Below, in pieces: positions 35,588-48,617 of a stretch of DNA of 64,000 bases. The position numbers and the translations under genes were made by a program. The stretch spans positions 124,001 through 188,000 of the forward strand of contig CAJIYH010000003.1 of assembly GCA_905181615.1 (NCBI GenBank). Reading direction: 5' to 3'. The DNA is from an uncultured Flavobacteriaceae bacterium. Lineage in GTDB: Bacteria; Bacteroidota; Bacteroidia; Flavobacteriales; Flavobacteriaceae. The notes below the pieces were generated by a model, which was not told the origin of the DNA, ran no database searches, and saw only the letters and a list, made by a program, of their open reading frames with translations. Positions within the stretch are counted from its first letter, which is position 1. Each line of letters starts with the position of its first letter.

Positions 35588-36820
35588 TTAAACTACTTTA
35601 TCAGAGCATTTTAAGGTAATTACGGTTATTTCAGGCCAAATCCCGACTCTTCCCGGGTAGGCTAAAAAACCAAAACCACGGTTTACATTGAGGTATTGTT
35701 TGGCTTGATTATAAACGCCTGCCCATTGCTTATACCTCCATTTTACTGGACTCCACTTGAACCAGCCGGGTATCTCAATTCCAAATTGCATACCGTGAGT
35801 ATGACCACTTAAGGTGATTTCAAATGGGAAAGGATGCTCGATTACCTCTGCCTCCCAATGAGAAGGGTCGTGTGACATTAAAATCTTAAAATCAGTTTCC
35901 TTAACCTCAGAAACCGCAAGATTGAGGTCTCCTGACTTTTTAAAGCCACCTTTTCCCCAATTTTCAACCCCTATTAATGCAATTCGTTCTCCGTCTTTTT
36001 CAAGATATTCTGAGTCATTAAGCAGCATCTTAAAACCCATTTTTTCTTGGGCGTTAATTAAATCAGAAAAATTTTTCTTTTTATCTTCTTCTGTTTCCCA
36101 TTGAACATAATCTCCATAATCGTGGTTACCCAAGACAGAGTATTTTCCATGTGTTGCTTTTAGTGAAGTTAATAAATCCATCCAAGGATAAACCTCAGAA
36201 GCTTTATTGTTTACCATGTCACCTGTAAAAAGGATTACGTCTGATTGCTGCTCATTAATCAAATCAATTCCATAAGATACTTTTTCTCTGTTGTCAAAGC
36301 TACCGCTATGAATGTCTGAAATCTGAGTTAGAGTAAATCCGTCAAATGCCTTAGGTAAGTTGTCAAATTCTAACGTATATTTTAAAACTTTATAATTATA
36401 CTTGCCCTTATACATGCCAAATAAAAGGGATGCTAAAGGAACAGCAGCAATACCTAATGCTATTTGTGAAATGAATTTTCTTCGGTCAGGAAAATAATTT
36501 CTGCCTGATTCTCCTTGAGTGAAAAAACGATATATTGCCTGCGGAATTCTAACAACATCTTCAAAGAATAGGAAAAGAACAACCAAGGTTTGAAAAATGA
36601 AAAGAGAAAGAAAAAGTCCTAAAGCCAAACTCATTCCGGGATTGAAAGTATCATCCCTACTATAAGAAATGCTTTGATATGTAAAATTACCCATAACAAG
36701 CACTACAATAACCCAATACAAAATCAAAATACTGCGTTGTTGAGTGAGTGTTTTGATTGCTTGAAAAGCATAGGTTCCAAATAAAGAAAAAAAAAGAAAA
36801 ATTATAATCCAGCGAAGCAT
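35588..36820 (-). CDS. Membrane-anchored metallophosphoesterase
   Basis: The 410-residue protein has about four to five N-terminal helices (1-23, 30-50, 65-90, 118-135) and a calcineurin-like domain after about 150. All metal motifs are visible: DIHSG, GDMVNN, GNHDYGDY, a later SHDPSH and SGHTHGMQFG. This is the YaeI/YkuE type, often linked to UDP-sugar lipid or phospholipid turnover, but the substrate cannot be told. The catalytic domain is expected on the outer face of the inner membrane or in the cytoplasm; the topology was not resolved. It starts 21 bases after the dgt stop. Confidence 0.87.
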   Translation of the reverse strand: MLRWIIIFLFFSLFGTYAFQAIKTLTQQRSILILYWVIVVLVMGNFTYQSISYSRDDTFNPGMSLALGLFLSLFIFQTLVVLFLFFEDVVRIPQAIYRFFTQGESGRNYFPDRRKFISQIALGIAAVPLASLLFGMYKGKYNYKVLKYTLEFDNLPKAFDGFTLTQISDIHSGSFDNREKVSYGIDLINEQQSDVILFTGDMVNNKASEVYPWMDLLTSLKATHGKYSVLGNHDYGDYVQWETEEDKKKNFSDLINAQEKMGFKMLLNDSEYLEKDGERIALIGVENWGKGGFKKSGDLNLAVSEVKETDFKILMSHDPSHWEAEVIEHPFPFEITLSGHTHGMQFGIEIPGWFKWSPVKWRYKQWAGVYNQAKQYLNVNRGFGFLAYPGRVGIWPEITVITLKCSDKVV

Positions 36821-36841
36821 ATTAAGAATTGAGTTGAAAGG

Positions 36842-38161
36842 TTATTTTATTTTTTTAGAAAGCTCCATAGCCTTTCCGTCCGAAAGGCTAGCAACGTAAC
36901 AAGTGGCATTGAGTAGCGTCGAATATAAGGTTCTTGAAACAAAAGGAGTGCCTGCCGGAACCAAACGCAATATAAGTTGATCATAAGCGTCTGCTATGCC
37001 TTTAAACTCATGAACAGCTGCAGTGGTAAACGCTTCTAGTAAGGTAGTAATTACTTTATATCCCACAATTTCTTTTTGAAGAACCTCTGGGGAGTGATAT
37101 ACTTTTTCAATACTTAAAGAGATAATATCGTCGATTTGCGCTACATATTTACTTTTATCCAATAAGGCAAAGGGGAAACTACCCGAAAGGATAGCTTCTT
37201 CATTTTCAATGAATATTGCAACAGCATCCTGAATAAGACTATTAATTGCTAGTGCTCTGAGATAGCTCATCCTTTGAGGGGTATGTTTTAAGGAAGCATA
37301 AGTTTTTTTATCTATGGCATCTTTTACAAGGTTAATTAGATACTCTAATGCATACGATTCAGAAATCCAGCCTAAATTAATTCCATCTTCAAAATCAATT
37401 ATAGTATAACAAATATCGTCAGCTGCTTCTACCAAGTAAGCCAATGGATGCCTATAAAAAGTATCTCCTTTTTTATGTAACCCTAAGTCTTTTGCAAGTG
37501 TATTAAACCCAGATTCTTCGGTTTGAAAGAACCCGAATTTTTTGTCAGCAACGTGTTTTGTTGGTTTATGAGGTAATGATGCCTTTGGATATTTCATATA
37601 GGCTCCTAAGGTAGCTGCGCTAAGTCTTAAACCCCCTGGCGCTCCATCCATCGATTGAGAAACAATTTTAAAACCATTTGCATTTCCTTCGAACATACAC
37701 AAGTCTTGATATTGGAGTGCACTCAATTCCGGTTTATGTATCGCACCTGGTCCATCAGAAAAAAAATGTCCTATGGCTTTTTCGCCACTATGCCCAAAAG
37801 GTGGATTTCCAATGTCATGAGCAAGCGCTGCTGCAGCTACAATAGCTCCAAAATCATTGGATTGATATCCATGAATTTCCGACAAGTAAGGATGCTTTTC
37901 AAGAATTGCCTTTCCTGCTAATCTTCCGATACTTCTAGCTACTACTGATACCTCGAGGCTGTGAGTAAGTCGTGTGTGAACAAAGTCTGTTTTGGAAAAA
38001 GGGATCACTTGGGTCTTATCCTGTAAGCTCCTAAAGGCTGCTGAAAAAACAATGCGATCATAATCTACTTCAAATCCCAGACGGGTTTCGTCCTGCTCCT
38101 TTCTCAGTCTTTTGGTTTTATCTCCTTGTCTCTGCAAGGATAAAAGCTGCTCCCAATTCAT
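36842..38161 (-). CDS. dgt: dGTP triphosphohydrolase
   Basis: The enzyme hydrolyses dGTP (or other dNTPs) to the nucleoside and triphosphate, helping to set nucleotide pools. The 439-residue HD-domain protein has RTRLTH-like HTRLTHSLEVSVVARSIGRL near 62-81, ALAHDIGNPPFGHSGE (HD motif, about 112-127), YLVEAADDICYTIIDFEDG near 250 and a C-terminal helical part. Length is normal for Bacteroidota. It is the first gene of a leftward group with the phosphoesterase and thioredoxin-fold genes and is divergent from the phosphate-cluster lipoprotein. Confidence 0.93.
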   Translation of the reverse strand: MNWEQLLSLQRQGDKTKRLRKEQDETRLGFEVDYDRIVFSAAFRSLQDKTQVIPFSKTDFVHTRLTHSLEVSVVARSIGRLAGKAILEKHPYLSEIHGYQSNDFGAIVAAAALAHDIGNPPFGHSGEKAIGHFFSDGPGAIHKPELSALQYQDLCMFEGNANGFKIVSQSMDGAPGGLRLSAATLGAYMKYPKASLPHKPTKHVADKKFGFFQTEESGFNTLAKDLGLHKKGDTFYRHPLAYLVEAADDICYTIIDFEDGINLGWISESYALEYLINLVKDAIDKKTYASLKHTPQRMSYLRALAINSLIQDAVAIFIENEEAILSGSFPFALLDKSKYVAQIDDIISLSIEKVYHSPEVLQKEIVGYKVITTLLEAFTTAAVHEFKGIADAYDQLILRLVPAGTPFVSRTLYSTLLNATCYVASLSDGKAMELSKKIK

Positions 38162-38237
38162 AAATTCATTTTATGTAAAAATAAGAAGATTTAAGGAGTA
38201 ATTAAATTAAAGTTTAATTGCTTTTGAAAATAAATTA

Positions 38238-38276
38238 TTAACAGTTTAGTCACATTTTGATAACCTTGTATTAACA
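38238..38276 (+). promoter_or_regulatory. Pho-box-like array: four direct repeats in exact 11-bp phase
   Basis: TAACA at 38239, TCACA at 38250, TAACC at 38261 and TAACA at 38272 start exactly 11 bases apart; the first and last are preceded by T, giving TTAACA. PhoB/PhoP-type regulators bind direct repeats at 11-bp spacing, and the B. subtilis PhoP unit is TTAACA-like. The array ends 20 bases before a -7 box (38297-38304), where an activator replacing the -33 contact should sit. The downstream genes include a phosphate porin and PiT transporter. Confidence 0.7.
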
Positions 38277-38296
38277 TGAAAGTTCTGAAGTTGAAA

Positions 38297-38304
38297 TATG
38301 TTTG
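38297..38304 (+). promoter_or_regulatory. -7 promoter box of the phosphate-cluster lipoprotein gene
   Basis: TATGTTTG matches TAnnTTTG, 28 bases before the ATG at 38333, and follows the 11-bp repeat array at the spacing expected of an activator-dependent promoter with no -33 box of its own. Confidence 0.6.
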
Positions 38305-38332
38305 TGGAGCAATTAAAAATTAAATTATTCTT

Positions 38333-39619
38333 ATGAAAAATTCAACAAATAAATCTAGCCTTTTAACTTTAATGATGTTTAGTTTTTCGCTGATTTCTTG
38401 TAGTTCTGATCCAGAAACTATTATTGAAACTGTGACCATAACAGAAACTGTAACTGTAACAACAGTTATTCCAACTCCAGACACAGAAACTGTTGGTTCA
38501 GGAGGTATTACTTTTATTGATGACTCTCAAACTTGGTCAAGTGATCGTGTATGGATTATGAATGGAAAAATTGTAGTACGTTCAGGGGGATCTTTAACGA
38601 TAGAATCGGGGACAATTGTTAAGGCTCAAAACGGTCAGGGAGTAAATGCTACTGCTTTAGTTATAGCCGCAGGAGCTACAATTAATGCTGTTGGAACTTC
38701 TGATGCTCCAATTATATTTACTGACATCGAAGACAGCATTTCTTATGGTGATGGTGTTATTAGCCCAAATCGTGAACCAACCGATACAGGAAAATGGGGT
38801 GGAGTTATCGTCTTGGGAAATGCAATTGTTGGCGAAGACGGTGGTTCTGATGATATTGAAGGAATTGCTGAAGGTTTTGACTGGACAACTTACGGAGGAG
38901 ATAATGACTCGGATTCTTCTGGCTCTATATCTTACGTGTCTATTCGTCACAGTGGAACACAGTTAGCTGGAGGCGATGAGATTCAGGGTCTTACTTTAGG
39001 GGGAGTTGGTTCTGGAACTGAACTTAATAATATCGAGGTAGTAGGAAGTAATGATGATGGAATTGAAATTTTTGGGGGTGCAGCTGTACTTACCAACATA
39101 TTAATTTTAAACCAGAGAGATGATGCTATCGATTTAGATGAAGGATATAGAGGGTCTATTACTAATGTCTTGATTCAGATGCGTTCAAATTCTGATAACC
39201 CTTTTGAAATCGATGGAACTGAAGACAGTACAGGAGTAATTGGAGGGTCATTTACAGTTAATAATGTAACTATTTACGGAAATGCTTCGCCTGAATCCGG
39301 AAAGAATAATTTAGGGGACTGGAAAAGTGATGCTACTGGTTTAACTAATAATGTTGTGTATAAGAATGTTGATGATCTTACTATCAAGGGAATCGATGCT
39401 GATACTTACAGCGGTATTGCTACTGAAAAAAGCTCAGACAATCTTAACTTCAATAACTTTTATTTTATGTCCGCAAAGTCAACTTTAGATGAAATATTTG
39501 CTAAAACAACAGTGACTGATTACGCTGACTGGGCTAAAGTATCAACTTCACAGGTTGAAACTACAGGTGCAGATGAATCTTTGTTTCCTTGGACTCTTTG
39601 GAGTGCTTTACAAAATTAA
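38333..39619 (+). CDS. Surface lipoprotein with beta-helix-like repeats, phosphate cluster
   Basis: The 428-residue protein has a clear lipobox (FSLISC, modified Cys23) followed by acidic residues and a Thr/Val/Glu-rich linker (ETIIETVTITETVTVTT). The body reads as a beta-helix: GKIVVRSGGSLTIESGTIVK, APIIFTDIED, GKWGGVIVLGNAIVGEDGG, DIEGIAEGFDWTTYGGDNDS, NNIEVVGSNDDGIEIFGGAA and DDAIDLDEGYRGSITNVLI. No enzyme motif is recognised. It precedes a TonB-dependent receptor and is preceded by a Pho-box-like array, so a role in binding a phosphate-containing ligand at the cell surface is a reasonable inference, but untested. Confidence 0.8.
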   Translation: MKNSTNKSSLLTLMMFSFSLISCSSDPETIIETVTITETVTVTTVIPTPDTETVGSGGITFIDDSQTWSSDRVWIMNGKIVVRSGGSLTIESGTIVKAQNGQGVNATALVIAAGATINAVGTSDAPIIFTDIEDSISYGDGVISPNREPTDTGKWGGVIVLGNAIVGEDGGSDDIEGIAEGFDWTTYGGDNDSDSSGSISYVSIRHSGTQLAGGDEIQGLTLGGVGSGTELNNIEVVGSNDDGIEIFGGAAVLTNILILNQRDDAIDLDEGYRGSITNVLIQMRSNSDNPFEIDGTEDSTGVIGGSFTVNNVTIYGNASPESGKNNLGDWKSDATGLTNNVVYKNVDDLTIKGIDADTYSGIATEKSSDNLNFNNFYFMSAKSTLDEIFAKTTVTDYADWAKVSTSQVETTGADESLFPWTLWSALQN

Positions 39620-39649
39620 TGAATCAATAAAACATAATTCTTTATTAAA

Positions 39650-39679
39650 GTCTCCCCAAATCATATGATTTGGGGAGAC
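39650..39679 (+). terminator. Perfect 30-bp palindrome between lipoprotein and receptor genes (terminator or attenuator)
   Basis: The arm GTCTCCCCAAATCAT is followed at once by its exact reverse complement, 15 pairs with no spacer; a T-rich stretch (CATTTATATTTATT) follows. It lies 30 bases after the lipoprotein stop and 17 before the receptor ATG at 39697. It may reduce read-through so the lipoprotein is made in excess of the receptor, or protect the 3' end of the lipoprotein message. Confidence 0.7.
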
Positions 39680-39696
39680 CCATTTATATTTATTAC

Positions 39697-42507
39697 ATGA
39701 AAAAAACACTCTCAATACTTCTAATTTTAATTACAACTCTTAGTTTTTCACAAACAATAATTACGGGTAAGATAATAGATACTGAATTTAATGATGTACT
39801 TCCTTTTGCAAATATTATTCTAAAAAAGAACTCTGATGATAGTTTCATTCAAGGATTAATTTCTGATTTTGACGGAAAATTTCGATTCGATGTAATTAAT
39901 GGAGAATATTCATTAGAAATTTCTTTTGTAGGTTATGAAACAAAAAAAATAACAGGAATTCAAATTACAGATGTTAAAGAATATGTAGTAGATATATATT
40001 TAAGCCCTTTGGCGAATTCACTTGAAGAAGTTATAGTAACTACTTCACAACGGAAAAATTCTGAAGTTGCAGTTTTATTAATTCAAAAGAAATCAATTAA
40101 TTTAATTGATGGACTATCCTCACAATCAATAAAAAGGACAGGAGACAATAATTTAGCTTCTGCAATAAAGCGAGTGCCTGGAGTATCGGTTCAGGATGGA
40201 AAATTTGTATACGTTAGAGGATTAGGTGATAGATATTCGAAAACACTTTTGGGAGGGCTTGAAATCCCGGGTTTAGATCCTGACAAAAACACTTTGCAAT
40301 TAGATGTATTTCCAACCAACATTCTAGATAACATTATCATTAATAAGTCTGCAAGTGCGGATTTAAATGCGGATTTCAGTGGGGGAATTGTAAACATAAT
40401 TCTAAAAGATTTCTCAAACTTGCCTCAATACAGTTTTTCCGTGTCTGGAAGCTACAATCCAGAAATGAATTTTGTTAATCAAGCAATCAGAAATAATCAA
40501 AACGGGGTTAATTTCTTGGGATTCAACAACGGATACTTCGATCGACCTATTGGAGCGCAACAAGTAATTCCTCTTCCAGAACAAAATGCTTTGGGAAACT
40601 CAGGAGTGCTTAACAAAATCACAAGTTTATTTGAACAACAAATGGCTGTTAATAGATACCGAAGTGGAGGTGATTTTAGTGTTGGAGCTACAGCGTCTAA
40701 TCAGTTTAGAATGAAAAATGAAACAACAATTGGATATATTGCTGCTTTTGGGTTTCGATCTGACACAGACTACTTTGAAGACTATCAAACAGGAACTATT
40801 GCAAAAGAAACTTCTGGCATAGAAAATAATACTTCTCAAAGAGGAGAGTTGGGAGTTATAAAAAAACTAGCCAGTGCGCTTATTGGAATATCCTTCAAAA
40901 CTAAAAACTCCAAGTACAATCTAAATTTATTAAATTTAAGAAGTGCAGAATCAAATGCTATTTTTGCCCAATATGCAGATTACTTAGAAAATCCCTACAC
41001 CGGGGTAGCAAATATTTTAACATACACAGAGCGAAATATTGTTTCTATTCCTTTTAGTGCAAAGCATATCTTAAGAGAAGGAAAATCTATTATTGAATGG
41101 AAAGTGGCGCCTTCTTTTGCTGAAGTTTTTGATAAAGATTTCAAGAAGACCGTTTTTGAAACAGATTCAAACCTTTCTTATTTTACAATTTCTCCCTCTA
41201 CAACACAACTACCACAAAGACTTTGGAGAACATTAAAAGAGGATGCTATCGCAAGTAAGATTCTGTATACTCATAAAATAGAGGAGGGAAAGATTAAAGG
41301 AAAAATAAAAACTGGAGTTGCTTTTTCTTCAAAAAACAGAAGTTTTAGAACATCTAATTACGCTATAGATTTTATTGGACGAAGTGATGAATTATTAGGT
41401 AACCCTGATAATCTTTTGGATCCTTCTAATCTTTGGACTGCACAAAATAATAGAGGTTCTCATGTTATAGGAAGTTATCAAAGAACAAATCAGTATGATG
41501 CCGAAAGTAAAAACATTGCTGGATTTCTTTCAGCAGAATTAAAACTCTCCAAAAAATGGAAATCAACTCTTGGCATACGATTTGAAAACTACAACATGAC
41601 TTATACTGGAGAAACAATAGATCAAATAGTTTATGATAATTCTAAATTAATTGATGTTAAAGATTTTTTTCCTTCAATTAATATTATTAATTCTCTAAAT
41701 GAACAGACTAATCTTCGTTTATCATATTCCAGAACTACTGCCCGTCCTAGTTTTAAAGAGAACTCATCGGCTCAAGTTTTTGATCCCATTACAGAAAGAT
41801 ACTTCATTGGCAATCCTGAACTAAAACCAAGCTATATTAATAATTTAGATTTAAGGTTTGAAAAATATGGTGAAGGAAATCAGTTTTATGCTCTGAGTGG
41901 GTTTTACAAAAACTTTAATGATCCAATAGAGATAGTTGCATTAGGGTTAAATTCTCCAAATCAGCTAATTGGAAGAAATAACACTCGAGCAACAGTAGTT
42001 GGATTGGAATTAGAATACCGGAAAAATGTTTTGGAAACTGACACAAAAAAGTTCTCAATTAATATAAACACTTCTTTAATTTACTCCCAACAGAAAATGA
42101 GTGATTCGGAATATCAGGGTAGAGTTTTAACTGAACCCAATCGTTTAATTAGTAAAAACAGAGAGCTTCAAGGGCAGTCTCCATTCATACTAAACGCTGG
42201 ATTAACTTATTCTAAAATTAATAAAAATATAGAATATGGATTGTTTTACAATGTTCAAGGAAAAACTCTTGAGGTTGTTGGAGTTGGAAACATTCCTGAT
42301 GTTTACACGGACCCCTTTAATAACTTAGACATTGTCATAACCAAAAAATTGGGAGAAACCCAAAATCAAACCATAACATTCAAGATTCAGAATATTCTTG
42401 GAGATTATAAAGAGAGTTATTACGATTACTATGGTGAGGAGCAAAGATTGTTTTCTCTATTTAAAGTTGGTAGATCCATTAGTTTAGGTTACAGTATGAA
42501 ATTCTAG
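39697..42507 (+). CDS. TonB-dependent outer-membrane receptor, phosphate cluster
   Basis: The protein has 936 residues from the ATG at 39697, chosen because it gives the signal peptide (TLSILLILITTLSFSQ) and leaves the palindrome non-coding; the frame extends 9 codons further. After the signal comes a carboxypeptidase-regulatory-like domain (ITGKIIDTEFNDVLPFANII), then the plug (GVSVQDGKFVYVRGLGDRYS, LLGGLEIPGLDPD) and a long beta-barrel ending in an aromatic residue (LGYSMKF). It imports a ligand using TonB energy. It is not SusC-like: no SusD gene follows. The position between a Pho-box lipoprotein and a phosphate porin suggests uptake of a phosphate-containing compound. Confidence 0.88.
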   Translation: MKKTLSILLILITTLSFSQTIITGKIIDTEFNDVLPFANIILKKNSDDSFIQGLISDFDGKFRFDVINGEYSLEISFVGYETKKITGIQITDVKEYVVDIYLSPLANSLEEVIVTTSQRKNSEVAVLLIQKKSINLIDGLSSQSIKRTGDNNLASAIKRVPGVSVQDGKFVYVRGLGDRYSKTLLGGLEIPGLDPDKNTLQLDVFPTNILDNIIINKSASADLNADFSGGIVNIILKDFSNLPQYSFSVSGSYNPEMNFVNQAIRNNQNGVNFLGFNNGYFDRPIGAQQVIPLPEQNALGNSGVLNKITSLFEQQMAVNRYRSGGDFSVGATASNQFRMKNETTIGYIAAFGFRSDTDYFEDYQTGTIAKETSGIENNTSQRGELGVIKKLASALIGISFKTKNSKYNLNLLNLRSAESNAIFAQYADYLENPYTGVANILTYTERNIVSIPFSAKHILREGKSIIEWKVAPSFAEVFDKDFKKTVFETDSNLSYFTISPSTTQLPQRLWRTLKEDAIASKILYTHKIEEGKIKGKIKTGVAFSSKNRSFRTSNYAIDFIGRSDELLGNPDNLLDPSNLWTAQNNRGSHVIGSYQRTNQYDAESKNIAGFLSAELKLSKKWKSTLGIRFENYNMTYTGETIDQIVYDNSKLIDVKDFFPSINIINSLNEQTNLRLSYSRTTARPSFKENSSAQVFDPITERYFIGNPELKPSYINNLDLRFEKYGEGNQFYALSGFYKNFNDPIEIVALGLNSPNQLIGRNNTRATVVGLELEYRKNVLETDTKKFSININTSLIYSQQKMSDSEYQGRVLTEPNRLISKNRELQGQSPFILNAGLTYSKINKNIEYGLFYNVQGKTLEVVGVGNIPDVYTDPFNNLDIVITKKLGETQNQTITFKIQNILGDYKESYYDYYGEEQRLFSLFKVGRSISLGYSMKF

Positions 42508-42529
42508 ATGTTTAGAAAAAAATAATATC

Positions 42530-42568
42530 ATAACATTAAGTTAACATTAAAGTAATGATTAATTAACA
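42530..42568 (+). promoter_or_regulatory. Second Pho-box-like array, upstream of the porin gene
   Basis: TAACA at 42531, TAACA at 42542, TAATG at 42553 and TAACA at 42564 begin exactly 11 bases apart; the second and fourth are preceded by T, giving TTAACA. It is the same pattern as at 38238-38276 and lies 30 bases before the porin ATG, in the gap behind the receptor gene. No TAnnTTTG -7 box is found at the expected distance, so the exact start of transcription is unclear. Confidence 0.65.
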
Positions 42569-42597
42569 ATTTCGCGTTAATTAATTAAAAATCCTAT

Positions 42598-43794
42598 ATG
42601 TGGTATTTTAAAAAAGTCTCTTTGATATTAATTTTATCGATATCATGTGCATTTGCACAGGAAGTAACTACTTCTAAGTTTGGTAAAGGATTGCTTGATA
42701 TCACAGGTAAAGACAGTACATTTTATATGAATTTTAGTGCCCGAATGCAATACCTTAGCTCTACTAGTTGGAATGAAGGCGACTTTGAAGGTCGAGAATC
42801 TAACTTTTTGGTTAGACGTGCACGTCTAAAATTCAGTGGTTTTGCATACAATCCAAAACTTACTTATAAATTAGAGTTAGGGTTATCTAATAGAGACATA
42901 TCGGGAGCTTCTGCTTTTACGAGTAATGCTCCTCGTTATATTCTTGATGCTTATGTGCGTTGGAATTTTTATAAGAATTTTATTCTTCAAGCAGGTCAAG
43001 GAAAACTACCTGGTAATATTGAGCGTGTAATTTCTTCTGGTAATTTAGCATTGGTTGATCGATCTTTATTAAACAGCAAGTTTAATATTGACCGTGATTT
43101 GGGAATTCAGTTTCGTCATCATTTCAAACTTTCAGAAAACTTTATTGTAAAAGAGATTTTTGCTGTTTCTCAAGGTGAAGGAAGAAACATAACCAAAGGA
43201 AATTTAGGGGGCCACCAATACACAAGTCGTATAGAAGTTCTTCCTTTTGGAAATTTCAAAAGTAAAGGTGATTATAAAGGAGCAGATTTAGATCGCGAAC
43301 AAAAACCTAAACTTTTAGTTGGAGTTGTCTATGATGTAAATAATGATGCAGTAAAAACTAGAAGTAATATGGGTTCTTATCTCGAAACTAAAGAAGGTTT
43401 ATATCAAACTGATATTAACACGCTATTTTTTGACACACACTTTAAGTACAAAGGGTTTTCGTTAATGGCAGAATATGCAGATCGTGATGCAGATGAGCCA
43501 GTTGCAAGAAATGAGGACAATAGCCTCACAGGTGATGTAGTTAATATTGGAAATGCTACAAACATTCAAATGGGATATGTAATGCCTTCAAATTTAGCAA
43601 TTACAGGCCGTTATACTAATATTAACTTTGACTCTATAGTTTCTTCAAATAATAAGATTACACAATATACATTAGGTTTATCTAAGTATGTCGCAAAGCA
43701 TAAATTAAAAGTACAAACAGACATAACATACGAAGATTCAGTATCTTCAACAAACAAAATCGTATACCGTTTACAATTTGACATTCACTTCTAA
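42598..43794 (+). CDS. Phosphate-selective porin (OprO/OprP family)
   Basis: The 398-residue protein has a signal peptide (VSLILILSISCAFAQ) and the pattern of an OprP-type barrel: FYMNFSARMQYLSSTSWNEG, FLVRRARLKFSGFAYNPKLT, YVRWNFYKNFILQAGQGKLP, a loop with the arginine- and lysine-rich stretches typical of anion channels, and a C-terminal strand ending in Phe (VYRLQFDIHF). It lets phosphate or polyphosphate through the outer membrane when phosphate is scarce. It is followed after 11 bases by the PiT transporter gene and preceded by a Pho-box-like array. Confidence 0.88.
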   Translation: MWYFKKVSLILILSISCAFAQEVTTSKFGKGLLDITGKDSTFYMNFSARMQYLSSTSWNEGDFEGRESNFLVRRARLKFSGFAYNPKLTYKLELGLSNRDISGASAFTSNAPRYILDAYVRWNFYKNFILQAGQGKLPGNIERVISSGNLALVDRSLLNSKFNIDRDLGIQFRHHFKLSENFIVKEIFAVSQGEGRNITKGNLGGHQYTSRIEVLPFGNFKSKGDYKGADLDREQKPKLLVGVVYDVNNDAVKTRSNMGSYLETKEGLYQTDINTLFFDTHFKYKGFSLMAEYADRDADEPVARNEDNSLTGDVVNIGNATNIQMGYVMPSNLAITGRYTNINFDSIVSSNNKITQYTLGLSKYVAKHKLKVQTDITYEDSVSSTNKIVYRLQFDIHF

Positions 43795-43805
43795 AAAATA
43801 AAAAA

Positions 43806-46079
43806 ATGGATAATATTTATTTCATACTAGTTTCGATTCTTGCAGTTTTAGCAATCGGTGATCTTATTGTCGGAGTTAGTAATGATGCTGTCAATTTTTT
43901 GAATTCTGCAGTAGGGTCTAAAGCAATTCCCTTTAAAACCATTATGATTTTGGCTTCTTTAGGGGTTGCCTGTGGAGCATTATTTTCCAGTGGATTGATG
44001 GAGGTTGCTCGAAAAGGAATTTTTAATCCTGGAGAATTTTACTTCGATGAAATTATTTTGATTTTCACGGCAGTAATGTTAACTGATATTCTGCTTTTAG
44101 ACTTTTTCAACACACTCGGCATGCCAACCTCAACAACGGTTTCTATCGTTTTTACTTTATTGGGGGCAGCTGTATTTATGTCTATTATTAAAATAAGTGA
44201 AACCACCGGAGATTTTAGTGAAATAGTTAATTATATAAATACAGCTAAGGCAATACAGATCATTTCAGGTATTTTACTCTCCGTAGTTGTTGCGCTTACT
44301 GTAGGTGCAATCGTTCAATGGTTTTCTAGACTATTCCTAACCTATAAGTTTGAGGGAAAAGCAATATGGGTAAGTGCACTTTTTGGAGGTATTGCACTTT
44401 CTGCAATTACTTATTTCATTTTAATGAAAGGTATTAAAGGAACTCCTTTTGCAAACATAAAATATGATTTATTAGGAGGTGTGAAAATCAAAGACTTATT
44501 AGAACAAGAAGTTTTTAAAGTAGTTCTAGCAAATTTCTTAGTTTGGATTGGAGTTTCATTTGTGTTAATAAAGTTCTTGAAAGCAAACATATATAAAATT
44601 ATTATTGGAATTGGAACATTTGCACTTGCATTGGCATTTGCCGGGAACGACCTGGTTAATTTCATTGGTGTTCCAATTGCAGCATATCAGTCATACGAAG
44701 CTTGGGTTATCTCTGGGGTTACTGCCACTGAATTCAGCATGGGGGTACTTTCTTCTAAAGTGGCTACACCTACAGTTTTATTGGTGATTTCTGGAGGAAT
44801 TATGGTTCTAACTTTATGGATATCCACCAAAGCAAAAAAGGTAATGAAAACAGAGCTAGATTTGTCTGATCAGAATTCTATTAAGGAACGCTTTCAGCCC
44901 AATTTTATTTCCAAAGGAATTGTAAAATCATTTCAATTAGTAGGTAGTGGTTTTAATGCATTACTTCCCTCTTCTCTAAAAGAAAAGATAGAAATTCAAT
45001 TTTCAGATGCTGATCTTGTATTAAAAAATCAAAACGACAAAGATGCTCCTTCTTTTGACATGTTACGTGCATGTATCAACCTGGTTGTTGCTTCTATTTT
45101 AATATCTATTGCAACTTCTTATAAACTTCCTTTATCTACTACTTATGTGACCTTTATGGTTGCTATGGGTACATCACTTGCAGACAGGGCTTGGAAGAGA
45201 GACAGTGCGGTTTATCGTGTTGCCGGGGTTCTTAGTGTTATTGGAGGTTGGTTTTTAACCGCTTTCGCTGCCTTTATTGTGTCTGGAATTATAGTCACTA
45301 TAATTTACTTAGGAGGCCCTCAAGCAATTGCAATTATTCTTTTTATAATCTTATTAATAATAGGTAAAAACTATTTGAAGCACAAAAACGAAAATTCGGA
45401 TCTTATTGATCTAGATGGCTTAGTAAAATCAGAAAGCAACTCCATTAAAGGTGTGATGGACGAGAGTACTAAAAATGTGATTAAAGTATTTAAACGTGTG
45501 GATAAAATTTACGCGATTCTTTCAGAAGGTCTTGCAAAGCATGACAAGAAAATCCTTAAAAAGGCAAGAAAAAATATCAATCGTTTGACCGAAGATGTTG
45601 AAAACCTTAGAGAAAATATTTTTTACTTCATTAAGAATTTAGAAGAATCTAGTTTGTCTGCAAGTAACTTCTATATTGTAATTCTAAGCCTTATTCAAGA
45701 CATAACAGATGATCTAGAATATATTGTAAAGAAGAGTTATAAACACGTAAATAACGATCACTCGAAGTTAAAATTAAGTCAAGTTCGTGATTTACAAAAT
45801 GTTTATGAACTAACAGAAGCTGTGTTTCATGAGGCTATGGAGGCATACAACAACAACTCTGAAGCTAAGATTAATCTAGTTTTAGAAAATCGTGAGGATA
45901 TCTTAAAACAACTTGACGAGAAAATTAACAATCAAATTGCACTTACACGAAATGAGGAAACCAGTCCAAAAAACACAACATTGTATTTTAATATTCTTTT
46001 AAAGTCTAAAGATTTATACCTCCATAAATTAAGTATCATGGAAACATTTTTAGACAATATTCGCAAGATTGAATCCTAG
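43806..46079 (+). CDS. PiT-family inorganic phosphate transporter with a PhoU-like C-terminal domain
   Basis: The 757-residue protein has two PiT halves, each with the signature aspartate-asparagine stretch (IGVSNDAVNFLNSAVGS near 20-36; FAGNDLVNFIGVPIAA near 278-293). There are about eleven to twelve helices, and then a soluble tail from about 540 with heptad-like, charged segments (IKVFKRVDKIYAILSEGLAK; RKNINRLTEDVENLRENIFY). The tail resembles a PhoU domain, which links phosphate uptake to signalling. It moves phosphate with a cation across the inner membrane. It starts 11 bases after the porin gene, so the two form an operon ended by the hairpin at 46101-46139. Confidence 0.9.
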   Translation: MDNIYFILVSILAVLAIGDLIVGVSNDAVNFLNSAVGSKAIPFKTIMILASLGVACGALFSSGLMEVARKGIFNPGEFYFDEIILIFTAVMLTDILLLDFFNTLGMPTSTTVSIVFTLLGAAVFMSIIKISETTGDFSEIVNYINTAKAIQIISGILLSVVVALTVGAIVQWFSRLFLTYKFEGKAIWVSALFGGIALSAITYFILMKGIKGTPFANIKYDLLGGVKIKDLLEQEVFKVVLANFLVWIGVSFVLIKFLKANIYKIIIGIGTFALALAFAGNDLVNFIGVPIAAYQSYEAWVISGVTATEFSMGVLSSKVATPTVLLVISGGIMVLTLWISTKAKKVMKTELDLSDQNSIKERFQPNFISKGIVKSFQLVGSGFNALLPSSLKEKIEIQFSDADLVLKNQNDKDAPSFDMLRACINLVVASILISIATSYKLPLSTTYVTFMVAMGTSLADRAWKRDSAVYRVAGVLSVIGGWFLTAFAAFIVSGIIVTIIYLGGPQAIAIILFIILLIIGKNYLKHKNENSDLIDLDGLVKSESNSIKGVMDESTKNVIKVFKRVDKIYAILSEGLAKHDKKILKKARKNINRLTEDVENLRENIFYFIKNLEESSLSASNFYIVILSLIQDITDDLEYIVKKSYKHVNNDHSKLKLSQVRDLQNVYELTEAVFHEAMEAYNNNSEAKINLVLENREDILKQLDEKINNQIALTRNEETSPKNTTLYFNILLKSKDLYLHKLSIMETFLDNIRKIES

Positions 46080-46100
46080 ATTTAGAAACTGTCTTAAATC

Positions 46101-46139
46101 AAAAAACTCCTTGTAATAATTTACATGGAGTTTTTTTTT
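46101..46139. terminator. Bidirectional terminator between PiT and nrdA
   Basis: Arms AAAAACTCCTTGTAA and TTACATGGAGTTTTT pair with one mismatch around TAAT, with A and T runs on either side. It ends the rightward phosphate operon and probably also the leftward nrdBA operon, whose last stop is at 46158. Confidence 0.82.
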
Positions 46140-46157
46140 AAAAAATCTAAAAAAATA

Positions 46158-48617
46158 TTATGACCCACACATCAAGCAATCGTCTCCTTCATTCTCTTTA
46201 GATTGCTGTAACATTGCTTTTAATTCTGCAGGAGTTAAGGGTTCTACAGGAATAGGTGCAGGTGTGCCTTTATTTGCCTTAGCTTTTGCTGCCTTTGGAG
46301 CGTCTCCAACTTCAGCAGCAACCAATGCAGGTTTTTCTTCTTTTTTGACTTCGTTTGTCAACGTAAATTTAATTGCATCAACGGCAGACTTTGTTCTTAA
46401 GTAATACATTCCTGTCTTAAGACCTGACTTCCATGCGTAGAAATGCATTGAAGTTAATTTAGGCATGGTTGCACCCTCCATAAAGAGGTTCAGCGATTGG
46501 GATTGATCAATAAAGTATCCGCGTTGACGTGACATGTCGATGATGTCTTTCATGCTCATTTCCCAAACAGTTTTATAGAGTTCTTTAAGGTCGGCTGGAA
46601 TACCTTCTATTTTCTGAACAGATCCATTAGCACGCATCAATTCTTGTTTCATGTCTTCAGTCCATATGCCGAGTTCCACAAGATCTTCTAATAGATGTTT
46701 GTTTACAACAATAAATTCTCCAGACAATACGCGTCGCGTATAAATATTAGAAGTATAAGGTTCAAAACATTCATTGTTTCCAAGAATTTGTGACGTTGAT
46801 GCCGTTGGCATTGGAGCAACTAATAACGAGTTACGAACACCGTGCTTTTTTACTTGTTTTCTTAAAGAAGCCCAATCCCAGCGACCGCTAAGTTCTTCGT
46901 CTTTAATGCCCCACATGTTGTGCTGAAATTCTCCTTTAGACATTGGAGAACCTTTGTATGATTGATAAGGTCCTTCTTTTTCTGCTTCTTCCATTGAGGC
47001 AGTTACAGCTGCAAAATAAAGCGTTTCGAAAATGTCTTGATTCAATTGCTTTGCCTTATCTGAAGTAAAAGGCAAGCGAAGCATTATAAACGCATCTGCA
47101 AGACCTTGAACTCCTAATCCAACAGGACGGTGACGCATATTTGAATTTTCTGCTTCAGGAACTGGGTAGTAATTTCTATCAATTACACGGTTTAAGTTTA
47201 CAGTAACTTGTTTTGTTACTCTAAATAATTCTTCGTGATCAAATTCACCATTTTTAATAAACATCGGCAAAGCAATAGAAGCTAGATTACAAACAGCAAC
47301 TTCATCTGGAGCTGTGTATTCCATAATTTCTGTACAAAGGTTTGAAGAACGAATAGTTCCCAAATTTTTCTGATTTGATTTGCGGTTGGCTGCATCCTTA
47401 TAAAGCATATATGGAGTTCCTGTCTCGATCTGAGATTCTAGAATTTTTTCCCAAAGCTCACGTGCCCGGATGGTTTTTCTTCCCTTACCTGCTTCTTCGT
47501 ACTTAATGTATAGCGCATCAAATTCTTCACTATGACAGTTAAATAAATCTGGACATTCATTTGGACACATAAGGGTCCAGGTACTATCCTGTTCTACCCT
47601 TTTCATAAATAAATCTGGTGTCCACATCGCAAAGAAAAGATCACGAGCACGCATCTCTTCTTTTCCGTGGTTTTTCTTAAGGTCTAAGAAATCAAAAATA
47701 TCCGCATGCCAAGGTTCAATGTAAATCGCAAAAGACCCTTTTCGCTTTCCTCCTCCTTGATCTACATATCGAGCTGTATCGTTAAATACGCGTAACATTG
47801 GAACAATTCCGTTAGAAGTTCCGTTAGTTCCAGCAATATAAGATCCGGTAGCACGAACGTTATGGATAGATAACCCAATACCTCCTGCTGACTGAGAGAT
47901 TTTAGCGGTTTGCTTCAATGTGTCGTATATACCATCGATACTGTCGTCCTTCATGGTTAAAAGAAAGCAAGAAGACATCTGTGGTTTTGGAGTACCTGAA
48001 TTGAATAAAGTTGGTGTAGCATGTGTAAAGAAACGCTTAGACATCATCTCATAGGTCTCTATTGCTGCATCTAAGTCATCGATGTGAATTCCGATAGAAA
48101 CACGCATAAGCATGTGCTGAGGGCGTTCTGCTATCGCACCATTTAATTTTAGAAGGTAAGAGCGTTCTAGGGTTTTGAAACCAAAGAAGTCATATCCAAA
48201 GTCACGGTTATAAATTAAACTTGAATCTAATTTTTCGGCGTTATCTTGAATCACTTTGAAAACCTCATCAGATAATAATGGTGCTTTTTTGCCTGTTCTG
48301 GGATTTACATATTCGTATAAATCCTTCATGGTTTCAGAAAATGATTTTTTCGTGTTTTTATGTAAGTTAGAAACAGAAATACGTGCTGCCAATTTAGCAT
48401 AATCAGGATGTGATGTAGTCATTGTAGCGGCTACTTCCGAAGCTAAGTTGTCTAGTTCTGAAGTAGTAACTCCATCATATAGTCCTTCAATTACTCGCAT
48501 TGCAACACGAACTGGATCAACTAATGGGTTTAACTCATAACAAAGTTTCTTTACCCTAGAGGTAATTTTGTCGAACATTATTGGCTCTCTGTGACCGTCT
48601 CTTTTTACTACAAACAT
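46158..48617 (-). CDS. nrdA: Class I ribonucleoside-diphosphate reductase, alpha subunit
   Basis: The alpha subunit reduces ribonucleoside diphosphates to deoxy forms. The 819-residue protein begins with an ATP-cone ([20 protein letters not shown]), has the active-site regions [47 protein letters not shown] and NECPD, and ends in the redox pair CLMCGS. Just before the end there is a low-complexity Ala/Lys linker ([19 protein letters not shown]). The ATP-cone implies allosteric control by dATP. It lies 111 bases after nrdB, same strand. Confidence 0.96.

Follow-up and report, generated by a model that had tools for sequence, protein, structure and literature searches.

The surface lipoprotein gene that begins at position 38333 of the window (the whole 64,000-nt stretch of DNA from a marine flavobacterium analysed here) is preceded by a run of TTAACA-like repeats. 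This raises the question of whether the repeats form the site of a PhoB/PhoP-type activator. An earlier note on this DNA had placed TAACA at 38239, TCACA at 38250, TAACC at 38261 and TAACA at 38272, each 11 bases apart, with a perfect –7 box 20 bases past the last repeat. All of these positions hold, the box lying at 38297–38304. The repeats occupy the + strand of a 171-bp gap between a leftward dGTPase-like gene and the rightward lipoprotein gene, as follows.

36842–38161, leftward: dGTPase-like gene (NCBIfam)
38238–38276, + strand: array 1, predicted PhoB-box array of four TTAACA-like units with 11-bp steps (22.3 bits with a matrix built from relatives only)
38282–38287, + strand: GTTCTG, putative degenerate unit at the next in-phase position after array 1, inferred from the register
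38297–38304, + strand: –7 box TATGTTTG, a perfect match to the consensus TAnnTTTG
38333–39619, + strand: surface lipoprotein of 428 aa, ATG start at 38333 (beta-rich model)

The four hexamers of array 1 (TTAACA at 38238–38243, GTCACA at 38249–38254, ATAACC at 38260–38265 and TTAACA at 38271–38276) agree with TTAACA at 20 of 24 letters. In the same gap, periods of 6–10 and 12–19 gave at most 16/24. Agreement of 20/24 at period 11 was reached in none of 5000 first-order Markov versions of the gap, and the matrix score of array 1 was equalled in none of 20000. Nor was that score matched in 60 window-sized Markov sequences read on one strand, the best of which gave 18.3. The pattern stands far above shuffled rates, a comparison that the earlier note had proposed as a check.

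The usual –33 element lies about 17–23 nt from the –7 box. No TTG is found at that distance from TATGTTTG; those 5' of it are at 38291–38293 (3 nt off) and 38267–38269 (27 nt off). The –7 box begins 20 nt past the last repeat of array 1, and its TTTG starts 24 nt (13 + 11) after the last good unit. With no TTG at –33 distance and 24 nt to TTTG, the geometry is consistent with the claim that an activator site may replace the –33 element. The consensus TAnnTTTG is that given in the relevant part of PMC9723704. Among 16 aligned relatives, the last unit is mostly TTTACA, at the position where the window has the degenerate GTTCTG. The layout first described stands for this locus; the usual layout in relatives has one more unit nearer the –7 box.

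To score such sites, we trained a matrix with an 11-column repeat unit by expectation maximization (EM), seeded with TTAACA. Its loci were drawn from lipoprotein homologues, which are present in 133/149 family genomes. Of 30 loci, that of the window and that of a congener (L006) were held out because a site should not judge itself, leaving the lipoprotein upstreams (up to 220 bp) of 28 relatives. At period 11 the EM log-likelihood came to 165.6 for three units and to 202.7 for four, compared with at most 105.0 and 114.4, respectively, at periods 8–10 and 12–14. Seeding from the sequences themselves gave 165.6 again at period 11 (three units), and less than 120 at periods 9, 10, 12 and 13. The learned unit begins T-T-A-A-C-A and continues with five less constrained letters, the final one most often G, with frequencies of 0.96 for T2, 0.95 for A4 and 0.63 for C5.

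When both strands of the window were scanned with the four-unit matrix, the top score fell at position 38238 (22.3 bits) and the next at 42530 (20.8). Outside both arrays, no site scored above 9.1 bits. Array 1 ranks second highest among the 30 lipoprotein upstreams. The earlier note had described a single box before the cluster; this does not hold, since a second array at 42530–42568 had been overlooked. The remainder of the cluster is listed here.

39650–39679, + strand: 13-bp hairpin between the lipoprotein and TonB receptor genes (RNA fold z –4.3 over 91 nt)
39700–42507, + strand: TonB-dependent receptor (Pfam), from an ATG start (the open reading frame list has an upstream TTG at 39670)
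42530–42568, + strand: array 2, predicted PhoB-box array with ATAACA at 42530, TTAACA at 42541, GTAATG at 42552 and TTAACA at 42563 (20.8 bits)
42598–43794, + strand: phosphate-selective porin (Porin_O_P, Pfam)
43806–46079, + strand: PiT phosphate transporter (PHO4, Pfam)
45801–46013 (G000:C3:169801–170013), + strand: PhoU-like match in the C-terminal part of the PiT protein (23.7 bits at a cut-off of 23.5, marginal)

The Pfam matches bear out the description of a cluster ending in a phosphate porin and a PiT transporter. PiT homologues occur in 58/60 family genomes, mostly aligned over nearly the whole length. Array 2 precedes the porin start codon at 42598; it lacks both a consensus –7 box and a TTTG at a distance of 13 or 24 nt. 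In the sister genome (L227) an array precedes the porin too (16.6 bits), with TTTG after 13 nt as judged by eye. Features expected of a Pho box include at least three direct repeats with an 11-bp step, a fixed register in place of the –35/–33 element, a position before phosphate-scavenging genes with rarity elsewhere, and frequent presence at phoBR itself. Array 1 has the repeats as well as the register, the latter being absent from array 2.

We also tried a covariance model, sequence-only and built from the 16 aligned arrays. It gave 16 weak matches in the window's own genome, neither array 1 nor array 2 among them. In the window, the same model placed an AT-rich stretch first and gave parts of both arrays only 4–6 bits. 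Re-scoring of the 16 loci by the repeat matrix found only array 1, within one of them. The model is uninformative because position-specific columns and local alignment are unsuited to a repeat.

The genome (2.19 Mb in 7 contigs, 95.5% complete) was scanned over 1,720,121 of its 2,187,630 bases (79%), comprising the window and stretches of 856,121, 400,000 and 400,000 bases. On both strands of the 1,656,121 bases beyond the window, no site reached 16 bits, and the best scored 14.5. When three units and a TTTG at a distance of 13 or 24 nt were both required, seven sites of at least 9 bits remained in the scanned 79%, with array 1 at the top (17.2) and the next at 12.0. Array 1 is nearly unique in this portion of the genome. 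The sole other strong site precedes the porin of the same cluster, in line with the expectation that matches would favour phosphate genes.

Could the array act merely through phased AT-richness or curvature of the DNA, aiding sigma-A promoters generally with no specific regulator? The gap has only 20% G+C, and 11-bp phasing could bend DNA. Yet the unit is specific in its letters, as at T2, A4 and C5, and no Markov sequence of like composition matched array 1. Moreover, 0/30 aconitase upstreams reach 12 bits on either strand, and array 2 is the only other strong site in the scanned 79%. On these grounds we find this explanation barely credible.

Similar arrays recur in relatives. Among 79 of 80 loci from named records (L269 was left out, its upstream being too short), 22 of the 250-bp lipoprotein upstreams reach 15 bits, 36 reach 12 and 43 stay below 12. 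Of 1486 windows of 250 bp taken at random from these loci, 0 reach 15 bits and 7 reach 12. High-scoring records include some from Taibaiella, Cytophagales, Saprospiraceae and Bacteroidales, besides Flavobacteriales. When one 60-mer per training locus was looked up on the + strand, none recurred in the named loci. Near-identical relatives do occur, however: L283 and training locus L021 have arrays that are alike in all but a few letters, so the named set is not wholly separate from the training set.

Other phosphate genes were scanned in the same way. In the 1.5 kb upstream of PiT genes, which usually includes the porin promoter, 9/30 loci reach 15 bits and 13/30 reach 12, the window's own included. 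For PF12849, 15 of 30 fetched loci were scanned, ten of them clear PstS and five weaker; six reach 13 bits, all among the clear PstS, and the five weaker ones show nothing above 6 bits. PhoX-family loci behaved differently, with 0/21 at 15 bits and 1/21 at 12, and the full-length PhoX loci L086–L088 have no array; since most matches start deep inside the profile, 1.5 kb of upstream sequence may miss the promoter in this family. A PF05787 gene of Flavobacterium johnsoniae, in contrast to these array-less loci, is induced by low phosphate in the part of PMC8115612 that treats it. In many relatives, arrays stand before lipoprotein, porin/PiT or PstS genes, and in some before phoB; they were absent from the PhoX-family genes tested at 15 bits. 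With that exception, the sites stand before phosphate-scavenging genes and are rare elsewhere.

The arrays keep a preferred distance to the –7 box. For sites of 15 bits (three units), we measured from the last good unit to TTTG. It lies at exactly 13 nt in 15/19 lipoprotein training sites, 8/13 PiT sites and 7/7 PstS sites, and in 21/69 sites over whole named loci on both strands; random positions meet a distance of 12, 13 or 14 nt at 0.6–0.8% each, with about 0.6% expected at 13. One step further, at 24 nt, the corresponding counts are 1/19, 3/13, 0/7 and 5/69. Array 1, at 24 nt, therefore looks like the usual register with the unit at 38282–38287 worn out. Another 21 of the 69 strong sites over whole named loci lack any TTTG within 60 nt, so some arrays are not plain promoters when read in this orientation. 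Just 3' of the porin-side –7 box, a stretch GACAAAAACTA is shared by eye among L059, L060, L062, L068, L069, L070, L076, L078 and L081; it also appears in L183 and L184 of the PstS set.

A census of 247 loci, scored with three units, found 114 sites that reach 15 bits, a count biased toward phosphate genes because most loci were fetched for them; the own-genome scan and the random windows supply the unbiased counts. TTTG follows 62 of the 114 sites at a distance of 13 or 24 nt; 36 of these 62 precede lipoprotein genes, 14 porin, three PiT, three PstS, three TonB receptor and three other genes. The 52 sites lacking TTTG at these distances comprise 22 with no downstream open reading frame, 11 before lipoprotein genes, 11 before other genes, four before TonB receptor, two before PiT and two before phoB genes.

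At the lipoprotein promoter itself, the closest relatives score low: –0.3 bits for the congener L006, and –1.5, 2.2, 10.9 and –3.2 bits for the four closest named relatives (L227, L228, L235 and L229, respectively), whose lipoproteins are 58–75% identical to that of the window. The fifth closest, L230, has 17.0 bits, and a further Arcticimaribacter locus, L270, whose lipoprotein is 42% identical, has –6.6. In-phase pieces can be read by eye at this promoter in some of the low-scoring close relatives, and L227, L228, L235 and L270 each carry a strong array elsewhere in the locus. Three of these strong arrays lie well 3' of the lipoprotein gene (L228 at 14902, L235 at 14240 and L270 at 9398). 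The one in L235 lies past the PiT gene and is directed away from the nearest start codon; this locus has no porin gene between the TonB receptor and PiT.

These low scores, together with the degenerate promoter-proximal unit at 38282–38287, are what would be expected if array 1 were a PhoB box by descent that has become a relic or weak site in its own lineage. Against this, array 1 retains four good units and 22.3 bits, the second highest of 30 upstreams, and its TTTG is displaced by exactly one 11-bp step, to a spacing of 24 nt that is found in other species too. We therefore judge a relic improbable.

If array 1 is a PhoB box, which regulator would bind it? Two proteins of the window's own genome match the PhoB model over its full length. 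For the first, G000:C2:91728–92432, the two best NCBIfam matches are both PhoB models, at 207 bits (cut-off 296.2, TIGR02154) and 202.1 bits (cut-off 270, NF053854). As both fall below the curated cut-offs, although the best matches are PhoB and the orthologues are linked to lipoprotein homologues, we call this protein PhoB-like. The histidine kinase gene that follows has PnpS, WalK and PhoR as its best NCBIfam matches, all below cut-off. One strong match to the PhoB-like protein exists in 57/60 family genomes, and in at least 11 of these 57 the gene lies no more than 3.5 kb from a lipoprotein homologue (those listed are G001, G011, G018, G025, G030, G031, G033, G037, G053, G056 and G057). Upstream of phoB, within about 400 bp, 12/30 loci (own included in the 30) have an array of at least 13 bits on the strand opposite phoB. 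These are L310, L312, L314, L317, L319, L321, L322, L326, L327, L329, L332 and L333, where the arrays may serve either a divergently read gene or phoB; the window genome's own phoB (L307) has no array upstream.

The second PhoB-model match, G000:C2:513172, is nearest to RprY (289 bits at a cut-off of 370), so another OmpR-family regulator such as this RprY-like one might bind the array in response to some non-phosphate signal. Binding to tandem 10–11-bp repeats is within the general capacity of OmpR/PhoB-type regulators. The authors of a Riemerella study also remark, where they discuss the motif, that it resembles that of ArcA and that it has a role beyond phosphate (PMC9603813). The genes behind the arrays are nonetheless mostly phosphate genes, in a census whose loci were mostly fetched for such genes. 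Furthermore, it is the PhoB-like gene that is linked to the lipoprotein gene and is itself often preceded by arrays, a comparison made for the PhoB-like gene only. Control by such a different regulator appears quite unlikely to us.

The preferred reading, a PhoB box, has close parallels in well-studied bacteria. The PhoP box of Bacillus subtilis consists of TT(A/T/C)ACA repeats with gaps of about 5 bp; it resembles array 1 in its near-identical unit, its 11-bp step and its several units 5' of the core promoter, and differs in that it belongs to another phylum and another core promoter (here, –7 TAnnTTTG). In the PhoB box of Escherichia coli, TGTCA units with an 11-bp step replace the –35 element. 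The likeness there is that 11-bp direct repeats take the place of the upstream promoter element of phosphate genes; the differences are the unit (TGTCA versus TTAACA), the length of some relatives' arrays, in which six or seven units can be counted by eye, and the genes, which here encode a lipoprotein, TonB receptor, porin and PiT transporter.

Within the phylum, the nearest counterpart is the PhoP motif of Riemerella anatipestifer. According to the parts of PMC9603813 that cover it, the motif was obtained by DAP-seq with TTTAACA as its most conserved letters, nearly the same core word as TTAACA, and binding of eight promoter regions was seen by EMSA. It is bound by a PhoB/PhoP-type regulator and occurs upstream of phoPR, where a 35-nt region was bound. 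This motif fits the findings on the PhoB-like regulator here. Those parts of the text, the logo figure aside, describe no 11-bp array, –7 register or phosphate-gene regulon, and the emphasis of the study is on virulence and aerotolerance. The literature searched, with subscription journals and preprints mostly outside it, yielded low-phosphate genes and one DAP-seq motif, and nothing that describes this array or its register. As a Pho box, the array is a known kind of site, and its array form and register in Bacteroidota are without earlier description in that literature.

The genes served by array 1 also have counterparts. The lipoprotein has an invariant Cys23 across 27 aligned sequences and matches nothing in Pfam or NCBIfam at E 0.001; a sequence comparison with solved structures gave nothing convincing, with one match at E 0.13. 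Its predicted structure is beta-rich (mean pLDDT 80), and the best PDB matches of the model are beta-helix proteins, at E 0.01 at best and with low TM-scores. The fold is probably a beta-helix, judging from this model. Its closest named relatives are in Candidatus Arcticimaribacter (Flavobacteriaceae). The protein is likely related to the low-phosphate lipoproteins FI, FII and FIII of F. johnsoniae, beside which it is set by description only. In the sections of PMC8115612 on these clusters, PUSIII and PUSIV pair a low-phosphate lipoprotein (with a suspected pectin-lyase fold) with a TonB receptor, as here, and PUSIV has phoBR and OprP nearby. In the phoBR cluster, phoB and the neighbouring genes for a TonB receptor and lipoprotein FII are induced by low phosphate, and the OprP gene is not (PMC8115612, same sections). 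This phoB/TonB receptor/FII neighbourhood fits the linkage of regulator and lipoprotein seen here, although phoBR lies inside the F. johnsoniae cluster (PMC8115612), whereas in the window genome the PhoB-like gene is on another contig than the lipoprotein cluster. The sections on the clusters report no binding motif (PMC8115612).

From the array and its period, its near-uniqueness in the scanned 79% of the genome, the preferred register to the –7 box, the recurrence before phosphate genes in relatives and the gene linkage of the regulator, we conclude that 38238–38276 is very probably a Bacteroidota-form PhoB box standing in for the –33 element. When phosphate is scarce, a sensor kinase would phosphorylate the PhoB-like regulator, for which the product of G000:C2:91728–92432 is the likeliest candidate. 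PhoB molecules would then line up head to tail on a single helix face, one per 11-bp TTAACA unit, and the last would sit where the –33 element would be. From there it would recruit RNA polymerase with the housekeeping sigma factor to TATGTTTG, switching on the lipoprotein gene and, by read-through, the TonB receptor. Array 2 would act likewise for the porin and PiT transporter. The 11-bp steps, the 13/24-nt register and the missing –33 element fit such a line-up. The model follows what E. coli PhoB and B. subtilis PhoP do; binding, polymerase recruitment, activation rather than repression, and the signal are inferred.

Expression within the cluster may be adjusted further. The hairpin at 39650–39679 suggests a possible attenuator that would hold the receptor below the lipoprotein. 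Inspection by eye shows that L227 and L235 have hairpins here too, but different ones. An Rfam search of 36000–47000 in the window returned 0 matches.

How the kinase would sense phosphate is a related question. PstS, PstC, PhoX and free-standing PhoU were searched for in the window's own genome and none was found, nor does any of its ATPases score above the PstB cut-off; as the assembly is 95.5% complete, the absence of Pst, PhoX and PhoU genes could be an assembly gap. What the genome has is a PhoB-like/PhoR-like pair and two predicted Pho boxes, one of them before a PiT gene with a weakly PhoU-like C-terminal part. Because PstS, PstC, PhoX and free-standing PhoU were not found, the PiT protein, whose match to PhoU is marginal, becomes a candidate sensor. 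It might report phosphate to the kinase and, being itself expressed from a Pho box, close a feedback loop that needs no Pst, a tentative idea that we consider rather doubtful.

More broadly, the data provide a form of phosphate box that can be scored: TTAACA repeated every 11 bp, with the last unit 13 or 24 nt away from TTTG. Such a box would allow genes that respond to phosphate shortage to be predicted in genomes of the Bacteroidota, a phylum important for polymer degradation in the sea and in soil. Its spacing in 11-bp steps also amounts to a testable statement on how PhoB may contact the Bacteroidota polymerase.
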